Source: Nitrospirota bacterium
Lineage (GTDB): Bacteria > Nitrospinota_A > UBA7883 > JACRGQ01
Length of the DNA: 13,017 nt
Direction of reading: 5' to 3'
NCBI GenBank assembly: GCA_024275955.1
Contig: JAJRYD010000008.1
Span: 1 to 13,017, forward strand
In this document: positions 237 through 12,858 of the stretch, piece after piece
How the letters are laid out: each line of letters begins with the position of its first letter
Numbering within the stretch: position 1 is the stretch's first letter
Made by a program: the position numbers and the translations under genes
The notes under the pieces: model-generated
What the model was told of the DNA's origin: nothing
Seen by the model: the letters and a program-made list of their open reading frames with translations, nothing else
Database searches by the model: none

Positions 237-313
237 TGGTGCCCTCGACAGGGATTGAACCTGTGACCTCAGGATTAGGAATCCTGCGCTCTATCCAACT
301 GAGCTACGAGGGC
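237..313 (-). tRNA. tRNA-Arg (anticodon CCU), CCA encoded
   Basis: Read on the minus strand, the sequence folds into a standard cloverleaf. The acceptor arm is GCCCTCG at 313-307 pairing with CGAGGGC at 247-241. The D arm is GCTC/GAGC, the anticodon stem CAGGA/UCCUG holds the loop UUCCUAA, and a T arm contains GGTTCAATCC. Positions 34-36 are CCU, which reads AGG arginine codons. The discriminator base is A and the CCA end is encoded in the DNA (239-237). A TATAAA on the same strand at 345-340 is at a sensible distance for a -10 box, but no good -35 is seen. tRNA-Arg(CCU) genes are frequent targets of integrating elements in bacteria, which matters here because repeats lie just past the 3' end. 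Confidence 0.95.
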
Positions 314-7259: not shown

Positions 7260-7544
7260 CTACCTGCCTTTCTCTATCTCTGCCCTTATTGTTTTATGCA
7301 GGTTAGAGCTGATATTTTTTGGGATATCGTCCTGCTTTCTGCCGCCAAAGATTTCGAGCGTTTTGCGGAAAGTGCTAAGAACAGTAAGGCAAAGAGGACA
7401 GTTGGCAAAATGATGCTCAAGGCGCGATTTGGCGCTGGAATCTAGTTCGCCGTCTACTAAATCGGACATTTTCTCAAAAGCTTCCGGGCAGTCATCACCC
7501 TCACAGCCGGAGTGGCTATCCCCATTACCTTTCTTTGTTTCCAA
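7260..7544 (-). CDS. Small zinc-finger (zf-HC2, anti-sigma type) protein
   Basis: A 94-aa protein with the ZAS/zf-HC2 pattern: Cys19, 25 residues, His45, three residues, Cys49, two residues, Cys52. In anti-sigma factors this module grips an ECF sigma factor and binds zinc. There is no membrane segment and the C-terminus is a short charged helix, so it would be soluble. The N-terminus has two further cysteines or histidines (His11, Cys14). No sigma-factor gene lies next to it, so its partner, if any, is encoded elsewhere. The start is unclear. TTG at 7544 is used because it includes Cys19; an ATT two codons upstream has a better-spaced GGAAAGG, and the first in-frame ATG would remove Cys19. 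It sits 26 bp after the DUF465-like gene and 4 bp before the CoA-binding gene. Confidence 0.75.
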   Translation of the reverse strand: METKKGNGDSHSGCEGDDCPEAFEKMSDLVDGELDSSAKSRLEHHFANCPLCLTVLSTFRKTLEIFGGRKQDDIPKNISSNLHKTIRAEIEKGR

Positions 7545-9148: not shown

Positions 9149-9358
9149 ATGAGTTTTTTTTCATTGAGCCTAAAGGGGAATGCTTTAACAACCTTTGCGT
9201 TCCTTTTTCTTCTTCTAACGCCACGGCTATGTTCCTCCGCCGCAGTACCGACGACGGATATCTGCACGGCGATACTCTCTTTTACAATCGTATCGTTTAT
9301 TAAGTTAGACGGTATGTTATCGGGTTTCTTTTTCATGGAAAGCTGGAAAGGTAAATGA
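9149..9358 (+). CDS. Possible small secreted or membrane protein coupled to the pseudopilin genes
   Basis: A 69-aa frame from ATG 9149 to a TGA that overlaps the next start as ATGA (9355-9358). The predicted peptide has a hydrophobic segment (about 15-31) ending in a plausible signal-peptidase site (CSSA-A) and a second hydrophobic stretch (about 40-63). For it: the exact 4-bp overlap with the next gene, the same pattern used further down this cluster. Against it: no ribosome binding site, no recognisable family, and a 66-codon open frame on the opposite strand, which shows that the region is permissive. I lean slightly against a real gene. Confidence 0.3.
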   Translation: MSFFSLSLKGNALTTFAFLFLLLTPRLCSSAAVPTTDICTAILSFTIVSFIKLDGMLSGFFFMESWKGK

Positions 9359-9780
9359 TGTATCAGGGAAAGAGTGAAGGCTTTACCCTCTTGGAACTTC
9401 TCCTACTGCTCATGCTAGCTGGAATTATTTATATCTCCGCTAGCCCCTTTCTCCGTATAGACGAATCTGGCATTCAAAATGCCGCTCTGGTAGTCGCTTC
9501 CGATATATCGCGAACTCAGCTGGATGCTATGGCTAAAGGCCGAAAGCTTAACCTATCTTTCGCGTCAGGTAGCTGTATTTATCTGTACGGGGATGGCGCG
9601 ACAAGAGACCTCTCCGAGTTCGGCAGTGGAACTGTTATCTCCTCCGGTGGACCTGTAGAATTTAATTCACTTGGAGAGCCGGTGGGAGCTACCTCGCCGA
9701 TTACGCTAAGGTTATCTTCCGGCTCTAGCTCGCGGTCGCTTACGATAGAGCCGTATACCGGCAAGGTGACGGTACAGTGA
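9355..9780 (+). CDS. GspH/FimT-type minor pseudopilin (mshC-like position)
   Basis: A 141-aa type IV prepilin-like protein. A short leader ends at Gly9, followed by FTLLE with Glu at mature position +5 and a hydrophobic helix (about 10-32), the standard substrate of prepilin peptidase. The C-terminal ITLRLSSG...SLTIEPYTGKVTV is the beta-strand end typical of GspH/FimT pseudopilins. After processing it would sit in the inner membrane and join a pilus or pseudopilus tip. GGAAAGG precedes the two possible starts, ATG 9355 and ATG 9358; the second has slightly better spacing. Its stop overlaps the next start by 4 bp. The gene order downstream matches mshC-mshD-mshO-mshP, so an MSHA-like role is likely, but similarity to GspH alone would also fit type II secretion. 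Confidence 0.85.
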   Translation: MMYQGKSEGFTLLELLLLLMLAGIIYISASPFLRIDESGIQNAALVVASDISRTQLDAMAKGRKLNLSFASGSCIYLYGDGATRDLSEFGSGTVISSGGPVEFNSLGEPVGATSPITLRLSSGSSSRSLTIEPYTGKVTVQ

Positions 9781-10232
9781 AGCAAGCCTCCAATAATATG
9801 GGGTTTTCTTTAATAGAGCTTGTCACAGTTATCGTTATCTTAGGGATACTGCTTCCAGTTCTCCTACAGCCGTTTATAACCTCTGCAAAAGGCGTAGGCA
9901 ACGCTTCCGGCGCGGCTCTGCTTTCGTCTCTCGCGCGTGAGAGTCTTTCGCGCGAGCTGGCGTTGATAGATTCCAACCTGCCGATATCATGGCCGGCCGC
10001 TGACGGGCAAGGGAGGTATACAAAAAGCTCGGCAGTACGTGCTGTAGACGGCAAACGGTACAGCTCTATGGTAGCCGGACAGTTTGTCGACTCTGATTTT
10101 AACAATACAGACGGCGCGAGGGGAACTAACGACAGGTACCTAGTGGTTACTGTTACAACTACAGAAACCGCGACCGGCAAAACAAAAACTCTCTCGACAT
10201 TAAAATCATGGAGCTACAGTGTTAACAGATAG
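9777..10232 (+). CDS. Type IV prepilin-like protein (mshD-like)
   Basis: A 151-aa protein with a 9-residue leader ending in Gly9, then FSLIE with Glu14 at +5 and a hydrophobic helix (10-30). The mature part is a small globular domain ending in strands rich in Thr (VVTVTTTETATGKTKTLSTLKSW), a plausible beta sheet. The second position in the cluster and the type of sequence suggest an MshD-like minor pilin, though the family is poorly conserved. The start is GTG at 9777, overlapping the previous TGA as GTGA, with AAGGTG about eight bases upstream. An in-frame ATG (codon 8) would leave an unusually short leader. Four pseudopilin-type genes overlap here, which suggests equal-ratio translation of one complex. 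Confidence 0.82.
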   Translation: MKQASNNMGFSLIELVTVIVILGILLPVLLQPFITSAKGVGNASGAALLSSLARESLSRELALIDSNLPISWPAADGQGRYTKSSAVRAVDGKRYSSMVAGQFVDSDFNNTDGARGTNDRYLVVTVTTTETATGKTKTLSTLKSWSYSVNR

Positions 10233-10731
10233 AGGCAAAGCTTTTGGCTTTACGTTAATAGAAGCTATTGCCGTTATCTCTATTATCGGTACTCTCTCTG
10301 TCATAGGCTTTGGGTTTGTGGCCCACTCCGCTGAAATCTTTGTTATTGTTTCCAACGAATCAAAAGCCTATAACGAACTATGGGTAGCTACCGAGAAGAT
10401 GTCGAGAGATATCGAAACGGCAGATAGCCTGACTGTGAGCGGAGTGAGCGAACTGACAATCATTAATAGCGGCAAAAGCGGATGCGCCAACTGTGTAGAT
10501 AAGTCGCCTCTGGTTATTTACCGTTTAAACGGCACGACGCTCGAAAGAGAAACCGCTTTGGGCATTTTCCCGCTTGCTGTGAATATTACTGTTCCAACGG
10601 GGGAGGCGGCTCTTTTTGCTCTCTCTGGCAGACTTGTGAACCTCAGCCTTACAAAAACCGAAGGTGACATTTCTCTTACTCTTAGAACCTCTATCTACCC
10701 CAACCGAGATTTAAGCGAGGTGGTTCAGTAG
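10219..10731 (+). CDS. Type IV prepilin-like protein (mshO/PilW-like)
   Basis: A 170-aa protein with a leader ending at Gly10, FTLIE with Glu15 at +5, and a hydrophobic helix (11-34). The following helix (about 40-70), with LWVATEKMSRDIETADSL, is the pattern of MshO/PilW/GspJ-type minor pilins. A CxxC (Cys89-Cys92) precedes strands reading PLVIYRLNGTTLERE, again usual for this group. The two cysteines could form a disulfide in the periplasm. The start is GTG at 10219, inside the end of the previous gene (14-bp overlap), supported by GGAG five bases upstream. It ends by sharing one base with the next start. Confidence 0.85.
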   Translation: MLTDRGKAFGFTLIEAIAVISIIGTLSVIGFGFVAHSAEIFVIVSNESKAYNELWVATEKMSRDIETADSLTVSGVSELTIINSGKSGCANCVDKSPLVIYRLNGTTLERETALGIFPLAVNITVPTGEAALFALSGRLVNLSLTKTEGDISLTLRTSIYPNRDLSEVVQ

Positions 10732-11222
10732 TGATCTTTTCTTGGTTTTCCGTAATCTGGAAACGTCTCACCGCTGGCGACAGCGTTGTTTGGAGGCAAG
10801 AGAGTTTGGGCAGGCAAAGGCCAGAGTTGCCGCTTGCGACAGCTTTCTCCCGCACTGCGGGGATGACTCTTATAGTAGTTGTATTTTTTCTTATCGTTAT
10901 GGGGGGGATGGGGCTGGCGGTCGGCAGAATTTCGTCTAACCAGCATGAAGCTCTGGCGGGCAGTACATTTTCCAACGATGCCTATTTTACGGCAAACGCC
11001 GGTATCGAGTGGGCGGTGCAGACTGCCGTCGCGAGCGGCTGGTCGTCGACGGTTCAGCTTAGCAGTTTGAGAGGAACATACAGGTTGCCTAATGGGAATA
11101 GTTTTTCTCTTACCTATGCCGCCGACATGTTGACATCGAGTGCTTCGGTGAATGGCAGTCAAAGAAAGATATCATTCAAAAACTTTTCTCAAAGAATCGC
11201 CCCTATCATCGGCGCGCCTTAA
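10731..11222 (+). CDS. PilX/MshP-like pilus assembly protein
   Basis: A 163-aa protein with a single membrane helix (about 45-66) followed by GRISSNQHEAL and YFTANAGIEWAV (85-96). The latter is the hallmark of MshP/PilX/GspK-type proteins, in which an AGIEWA helix follows the N-terminal segment. Gly44-Met45 before TLIV is a possible prepilin cleavage site, without Glu at +5, as in MshP. The GTG start at 10731 shares one base with the previous stop and has GAGGTGG upstream, but gives an unusually long 44-residue leader. A TTG at 10827 with AAAGG six bases upstream would give a 12-residue leader and may be the true start. Last gene of the cluster; no mshQ-like gene follows. Confidence 0.82.
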   Translation: MIFSWFSVIWKRLTAGDSVVWRQESLGRQRPELPLATAFSRTAGMTLIVVVFFLIVMGGMGLAVGRISSNQHEALAGSTFSNDAYFTANAGIEWAVQTAVASGWSSTVQLSSLRGTYRLPNGNSFSLTYAADMLTSSASVNGSQRKISFKNFSQRIAPIIGAP

Positions 11223-11871: not shown

Positions 11872-12858
11872 ATGGGTAGCGATTTAGAACTTGTAGAATG
11901 TATGCACCGGGAGGAAGGGTTAAGGGAACTAAACTGTTCTAACTGCAAATACTGCTTGTCTTTTCCGATTAAAGCTTTTAGTGAGATAGACACACTCGTT
12001 TCTAAAATTAAGGATCTTATTTACAATCAGATTAATTTGGCATGGGATGCTTCGAAGGTAAGCTTTTTCCTAAAAGTTGTTCTTAATGAGGCGATACCCA
12101 ATGCCGTGGAGCATGGCATTCTTGGAATAGACTCCGCCCAGAAAAAAGCGCTTCATCAGGAGTTATCTGCCGACTATCCCGCTCATATTCAAAAAAGATG
12201 GTCAGAAAAAAACAAGCCGGTTGTAGTAAGCTTGTGCCTATCCCCCAAAAGGATACTGCTTGGATGCCATGACAGCGGAGAAGGGTTTGACCCTGAACTA
12301 TATACCATGAGTTCCGTTAACAAAAATAGTCTCCTCAAGTTGAGTGGCCGAGGGTTGATGCTGTTGGATTCGCTTGGCGTCAATCTGCAATGGAACGCAA
12401 AAGGCAATTCCGTGTTGTGTTCAATTTCCGATAAAACCTTAAGGGAAAGAAAACTTCAGCTTCACTTCGATAAGATTTTTCATGTTGGTGTAGAAGAATT
12501 TGACGCTCAGCATCAAAAGCTCTTTGGATTTTTTAACCTGCTTTTAAACAACCTGCAGGAATCGAGCGATGATGATACCCTGTTGGCAACGATTGTAGAG
12601 CTTACAAATTATGTTCACCTTCATCTTAGCGCTGAAGAAAAGAAAATGCGGGAATATAACTACCCCGGCTACGATAAGCATAAAAACGAACATGAGTATT
12701 TCAGTCTGCAGGTCTTATCTCTTCACGATAAGGTGCAAAAAAAGGGAGAGGCCCTGGATATAGAGGTACTCGGTTTCTTGGTTGGCTGGCTGAAAAACCA
12801 TATTGCGAAAACCGATAGAGGTTACACCGCGTTTTTTAGGGAAAGAGGAGTTAGCTAG
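11872..12858 (+). CDS. RsbW/HATPase-type ATP-binding domain fused to bacteriohemerythrin
   Basis: A 328-aa soluble protein with three parts. Residues 1-30 hold Cys10 and a C-x2-C-x2-C cluster (Cys22, 25, 28), able in principle to bind an iron-sulfur centre or zinc. Residues about 31-190 form a GHKL ATPase domain of the RsbW/SpoIIAB kind: N box NEAIPNAVEHG (72-82), G1 box DSGEGF (134-139) and G2 box SGRGL (158-162). There is no phospho-acceptor His domain, so it resembles an anti-sigma serine kinase rather than a histidine kinase. Residues about 199-327 are a hemerythrin domain with all seven expected di-iron ligands: His214, His251, Glu255, His270, His274, His310 and Asp315. Hemerythrins bind O2 and can sense oxygen, NO or iron. 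TGGAGG lies 11 bases before the ATG, a long spacing. No partner sigma factor, anti-anti-sigma factor or phosphatase gene is in the window. The role as a sensor-switch is inference. Confidence 0.88.
   Translation: MGSDLELVECMHREEGLRELNCSNCKYCLSFPIKAFSEIDTLVSKIKDLIYNQINLAWDASKVSFFLKVVLNEAIPNAVEHGILGIDSAQKKALHQELSADYPAHIQKRWSEKNKPVVVSLCLSPKRILLGCHDSGEGFDPELYTMSSVNKNSLLKLSGRGLMLLDSLGVNLQWNAKGNSVLCSISDKTLRERKLQLHFDKIFHVGVEEFDAQHQKLFGFFNLLLNNLQESSDDDTLLATIVELTNYVHLHLSAEEKKMREYNYPGYDKHKNEHEYFSLQVLSLHDKVQKKGEALDIEVLGFLVGWLKNHIAKTDRGYTAFFRERGVS

Follow-up and report, generated by a model that had tools for sequence, protein, structure and literature searches.

A 328-residue protein joining an RsbW/SpoIIAB-type GHKL domain to a complete bacteriohemerythrin in a Nitrospirota bacterium

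RsbW and SpoIIAB, the anti-sigma kinases of Bacillus, are stand-alone proteins without a sensor domain or a Cys element, and the sigma gene lies in an operon with them. LvrC of Leptospira has a signal-input domain fused to an RsbW-like Bergerat domain; the input is an N-terminal receiver phosphorylated by LvrB, and no hemerythrin domain has been described in this protein (PMC13269768). In CrsR/HsbR (Rec-PP2C-GHKL), the GHKL domain phosphorylates a STAS antagonist, and the fused receiver and PP2C domains supply the input and the phosphatase (PMC6482189). The O2 state sets the STAS/kinase partner switch in the Vibrio brasiliensis stressosome, where the sensor is the haem protein RsbR, on the STAS side (PMC4976288). 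As to hemerythrins, the characterised sensors act in chemotaxis or c-di-GMP turnover or are found on P1B-5 ATPases, and DcrH, Bhr-DGC, and Bhr-HD-GYP carry a seven-ligand hemerythrin on a signalling output that is chemotactic or a c-di-GMP enzyme, not a partner-switch kinase (PMC9388753). Signal transfer in DcrH is not fully understood, partly because it is a membrane protein that is hard to purify (PMC9388753). Two surveys mainly name fusions with MCP, GGDEF, and histidine kinase domains (PMC2556348, PMC4919030). MsmHr of Mycobacterium smegmatis, a hemerythrin-like protein, is tied to the partner-switch-regulated SigF, but it is a separate protein that acts on sigF transcription and is not fused to RsbW (PMC4295536). 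We found no description of a hemerythrin combined with a partner-switch kinase; one survey, accessible in part, counts 56 architectures (PMC4919030), and an earlier sighting is possible.

The window, a stretch of 13,017 nucleotides forming positions 1 to 13,017 of contig JAJRYD010000008.1, contains such a combination in the gene at 11872-12858 (forward strand). This gene encodes one protein of 328 amino acids, as judged from its ORF, Pfam and NCBIfam matches, the AlphaFold model, and PDB fold matches, and the catalytic and metal-ligand residues of both halves are intact. An N-terminal Cys element (residues 10–28; 11899-11955) leads into the GHKL (HATPase_c_2) domain (residues 27–188; 11950-12435), which is followed by a linker (residues 189–203; 12436-12480) and the bacteriohemerythrin domain (residues 206–326; 12487-12849), all on the forward strand. 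Pfam places HATPase_c_2 at residues 67–181 (31.9 bits; cut-off, 27.4) and Hemerythrin at residues 206–318 (52.4 bits; cut-off, 25.3), and the bacteriohemerythrin model NF033749 of NCBIfam matches the C-terminal half (107.7 bits; cut-off, 84). The junction between the halves lies in one continuous frame, and the window contains no N. In the AlphaFold model (mean pLDDT, 82.1), the linker is loose, with pLDDT below 50 at residues 193–203. Hemerythrin-domain sensors are recognised by a hemerythrin joined to a signalling output domain in one ORF, and the protein has this layout. The fusion is thus real and intact, and it is probably meaningful.

The kinase half has the features of an RsbW/SpoIIAB-type GHKL domain, that is, a Bergerat fold with N, G1, and G2 boxes. 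The N-box (E73, N77, and E80-H81-G82), the G1 box (D134-x-G136-x-G138), and the G2 box (S158-G-R-G161) are invariant in all 10 members of the family described below; E73, N77, G136, G138, and R160 are also invariant across 29 of 29 diverse HATPases, and D134 is kept in 27 of them. When the kinase half of the model was compared with solved structures using Foldseek and VIA-align, the nearest was LvrC (PDB ID: 9qih; 27% identity over 160 residues; Z score, 16.2), followed by SpoIIAB (12.3) and RsbW (11.1). The box assignment of the first-pass annotation and its expectation that these residues would be conserved in homologues are therefore borne out by the Pfam match above the cut-off, the invariant boxes, and the fold matches. 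With the N-box Glu and Asn (E73 and N77) in place, as in RsbW and SpoIIAB, the domain is predicted to be a serine kinase. Two further cysteines, Cys122 (12235-12237) and Cys183 (12418-12420), are located on core strands; both are invariant in the ten family members and mostly absent from other HATPases.

Likewise, the seven di-iron ligands that had been read from the sequence are all present. Alignment to 52 hemerythrins identified them as His214, His251, Glu255, His270, His274, His310, and Asp315, and the C-terminal half accordingly has the H-HxxxE-HxxxH-HxxxxD ligand pattern and the four-helix bundle of a bacteriohemerythrin. Its best structural match is the hemerythrin domain of DcrH (DcrH-Hr; Z score, 16–17; rmsd, 1.6–2.1 over 121–122 residues); a middling Z score arises by chance for helical bundles, and here the sequence HMMs agree with the fold match.

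The kinase half belongs to a small family, referred to here as Cys-ATPases, with ten members in seven genomes that all come from one bacterial family. The match score drops from 257 to 63 bits after the tenth member, and RR- and PP2C-length proteins appear among the matches outside the family. An alignment-based scan of contigs gave strong matches in Nitrospinales-type metagenome-assembled genomes only, a scan of genome contigs with the single sequence gave no match, and a plasmid search gave no match covering more than 80% of the query. As far as found, the subfamily is confined to one bacterial family of these Nitrospinales-type genomes. Besides the one fused copy, two of the ten lie next to a hemerythrin gene, and neither applies to the other seven. 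The genome of the window also encodes a stand-alone Cys-ATPase paralogue, 39% identical to the fused protein over residues 10–186, and the kinase tree carries too little signal to place the fused copy. A second protein spanning both domains was found in none of 60 relatives, 24 members of the phylum, and 297 genomes of one other phylum, a search that fusions with a distant ATPase could escape. A full-length profile run over 385 genomes reports the ATPase half only, even for the window, so it is uninformative on other fusions. Nor is anything to be concluded from 80 additional genomes, in which no match passed the search threshold. The proposed search for the same architecture elsewhere thus returned the fusion from this genome alone and the split pair from two relatives. 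Division into two genes in close relatives had been named beforehand as grounds for rejection, and literally it occurs; because the two genes are adjacent, the split counts as support for a functional kinase–hemerythrin pair. The genome of the window (G000) and its family also contain many receiver-HATPase (LvrC-like) genes and stand-alone hemerythrin genes, suggesting that both signalling types have expanded.

The gene order in one of these relatives (G003:C3) is three STAS genes, the Cys-ATPase, a bacteriohemerythrin, a PAS-like ORF, and a fourth STAS gene. The third STAS gene stops 2 bp before the ATPase start, the bacteriohemerythrin follows 76 bp after the ATPase, and the STAS proteins retain the RsbV-like IDS Ser. 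This order supports a link between the kinase–hemerythrin pair and partner switching. In the other relative (G009:C86), the hemerythrin gene is located 5′ of the Cys-ATPase on the same strand, and a receiver gene and then a receiver-HATPase gene come next. For ten ATPases, 0.09 hemerythrin neighbors would be expected, and two adjacencies and one fusion were seen; the chance of the two adjacencies alone is P ~0.0035 and that of three events including the fusion ~8e-5, all of these being rough, post hoc figures. In three genomes, a Cys-ATPase gene is convergent with a conserved neighbor, a gene for a receiver/histidine kinase of ~630 amino acids starting MLFGEFLV (L042 3100-5963, L044 3162-5691, and L045 3823-6487).

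STAS proteins of the G003 type occur in all seven ATPase-bearing genomes and in two without the ATPase, and high-scoring ones in none of 12 genomes of other families. The copy in the genome of the window (G000:C39:27641-27976) lies beside an Hsp70-like gene. The STAS gene adjoins an Hsp70/DnaK-like gene in several genomes of the family (L166 3082-4974, L177, L178, L182, and L183), in some with a CheW-like gene, which possibly represents a conserved partner-switch/chaperone/chemosensory cluster. SpoIIE-type phosphatases are also encoded in the genome of the window. No STAS, PP2C, or sigma gene is adjacent to the fused gene itself: on the upstream side, the last of the pilin-like genes stops at 11222, leaving a gap of 649 bp, and on the downstream side a convergent open frame ends where the fused gene does, so it looks monocistronic with no partner gene beside it. 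The survey of neighbors suggested by the first-pass annotation thus yielded STAS genes beside the ATPase in one relative and somewhere in every ATPase-bearing genome, but no partner gene next to the fused one.

Here, we propose, with moderate confidence, that the protein is a partner-switch kinase gated by O2 or redox state and that its hemerythrin modulates how STAS proteins are phosphorylated or bound. The GHKL domain would bind ATP and phosphorylate a STAS-domain antagonist on Ser, as RsbW/SpoIIAB, CrsR, or LvrC does, and would alternate between this antagonist and a second partner, which may be a sigma factor or a regulator of another kind. At its di-iron site, the C-terminal hemerythrin may bind O2 or shift its redox or ligand state (e.g., with NO). 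Its conformational change would then pass through the short linker and alter kinase activity or partner binding. The proposal is based on the domain HMMs, the fold matches, the invariant E73 and N77, the seven ligands, the two neighborhoods, and the co-occurrence with STAS. Several points count against it. The fusion is known from one genome, so its retention is not demonstrated by conservation. No partner gene stands beside it, and seven of the ten ATPase copies have no hemerythrin. Moreover, hemerythrins are numerous in these genomes, and the tree does not group the fused one with those of the operons. The stronger statement that the di-iron hemerythrin directly gates the kinase, so that a single soluble chain sets both STAS phosphorylation and gene expression according to O2 or redox state, is somewhat doubtful. 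If it is true, the relatives, with their split STAS–ATPase–hemerythrin cluster, would run the same O2-sensing switch with three proteins.

Each step of the proposed kinase gating has a separate precedent, and what is probably new is the use of a hemerythrin as the input to a known output module. Through the fusion, oxygen or redox status would probably enter a familiar type of switch by a new route, with a di-iron sensor on the kinase where the Vibrio stressosome has a haem sensor on the STAS side. A soluble, one-chain hemerythrin–kinase would make it simple to study how a di-iron ligand changes an attached output domain, and the separate genes of the relatives provide a naturally split counterpart.

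Sigma-factor control through partner switching, as first suggested, is supported in part: STAS genes lie directly upstream of the ATPase in one relative, but the copies examined had no sigma gene nearby. The sigma target is unproven, and kinases of this kind may also act on different partners. A stricter form, in which the GHKL domain is a true anti-sigma factor that sequesters a sigma factor and releases it according to O2 or redox state, appears rather unlikely. Four sigma-70 region-2 genes are present in the genome of the window, and from our own reading of the sequences, we take them to be RpoD, RpoH-like (C40), FliA-like (C25), and ECF (C33), the last three being the candidates; none of the four lies close to either the fused gene or the paralogue. 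The fold and residues of RsbW/SpoIIAB fit such a role, but by the same reading there is no RpoS among these four genes. CrsR/HsbR domains bind RpoS (PMC6482189), whereas LvrC itself has no known sigma target (PMC13269768).

The hemerythrin may instead be a tethered scavenger of O2 or iron, or a protector that shields the kinase or the Cys site from O2, with the kinase under other inputs. Single-domain proteins account for 74% of bacterial hemerythrins (PMC2556348), delivery or scavenging roles have been proposed for some of them (PMC11841059), the genome of the window has several stand-alone hemerythrins, and most ATPase copies have no neighboring one. However, DcrH is a known sensor in which the hemerythrin likewise follows a signalling domain at the C-terminus (PMC9388753), related GHKL domains carry a fused receiver as signal input (PMC6482189, PMC13269768), and two relatives keep a hemerythrin beside the ATPase, so we regard scavenging as unlikely. 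In the hemerythrin tree, the two ATPase-adjacent proteins (G003 and G009) cluster together with four others in a supported clade (97/90); the fused hemerythrin has a long branch outside this clade, and its grouping with them is not rejected (p-AU, 0.36).

The first-pass annotation had also pointed to a Cys-rich N-terminus and a possible second metal or Fe–S site. Cys10, Cys22, and Cys25 do form a conserved element, being invariant in all ten Cys-ATPases, but Cys28 occurs in the window protein only, leaving three invariant cysteines and not the four conserved ligands of an Fe–S site. The position of residue 14 is His in nine of the ten and Glu14 in the window protein, which has a histidine at position 12; the short family members show the pattern C-x3-H-x7-C-x2-C, and the four copies from one genus (G005, G008, G010, and one of the two in G009) contain an insert that brings in a further Cys and a further His. 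Given three invariant Cys and a His in the family, the N-terminus is a conserved Cys/His element that most likely holds a single metal ion in a structural role, probably zinc. We consider a zinc-type site likelier than a cluster, to which nothing points, and Fe–S was set aside as the default reading because the fourth Cys is unconserved and the family has His. It is very unlikely that this element (as an Fe–S site or redox thiols) is the main sensor and the hemerythrin secondary. Cys122 and Cys183 are invariant along with Cys10, Cys22, and Cys25, which speaks for this reading, but three Cys and one His are more typical of a structural site, and the confidence at the N-terminus, low in both AlphaFold models, is too low for judging geometry.

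Least probable is that two neighboring genes were recently joined by read-through, perhaps neutrally or as an assembly artefact, with no new function. This would fit a fusion in one genome whose relatives have separate genes, but the frame is continuous with no N, the short linker is located at the natural bacteriohemerythrin start, the catalytic and ligand residues are all intact, and both halves are long diverged (end branches of 2.0 and 1.2) without decay.

Elsewhere in the window, four consecutive pilin-like/type II secretion-like genes (9355-11222, forward strand) encode N-terminal methylation-type segments, with weak HMM support. A 94-residue zf-HC2 protein (7260-7544, reverse strand; Pfam, 30.5 bits) is encoded beside a CoA_binding_2 gene with no adjacent sigma gene; zf-HC2 is a domain type often found in anti-sigma factors. 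Rfam detected one tRNA in the window and nothing else. This tRNA gene (240-313, reverse strand) overlaps an ORF on the forward strand (236-499), which is probably not a gene.
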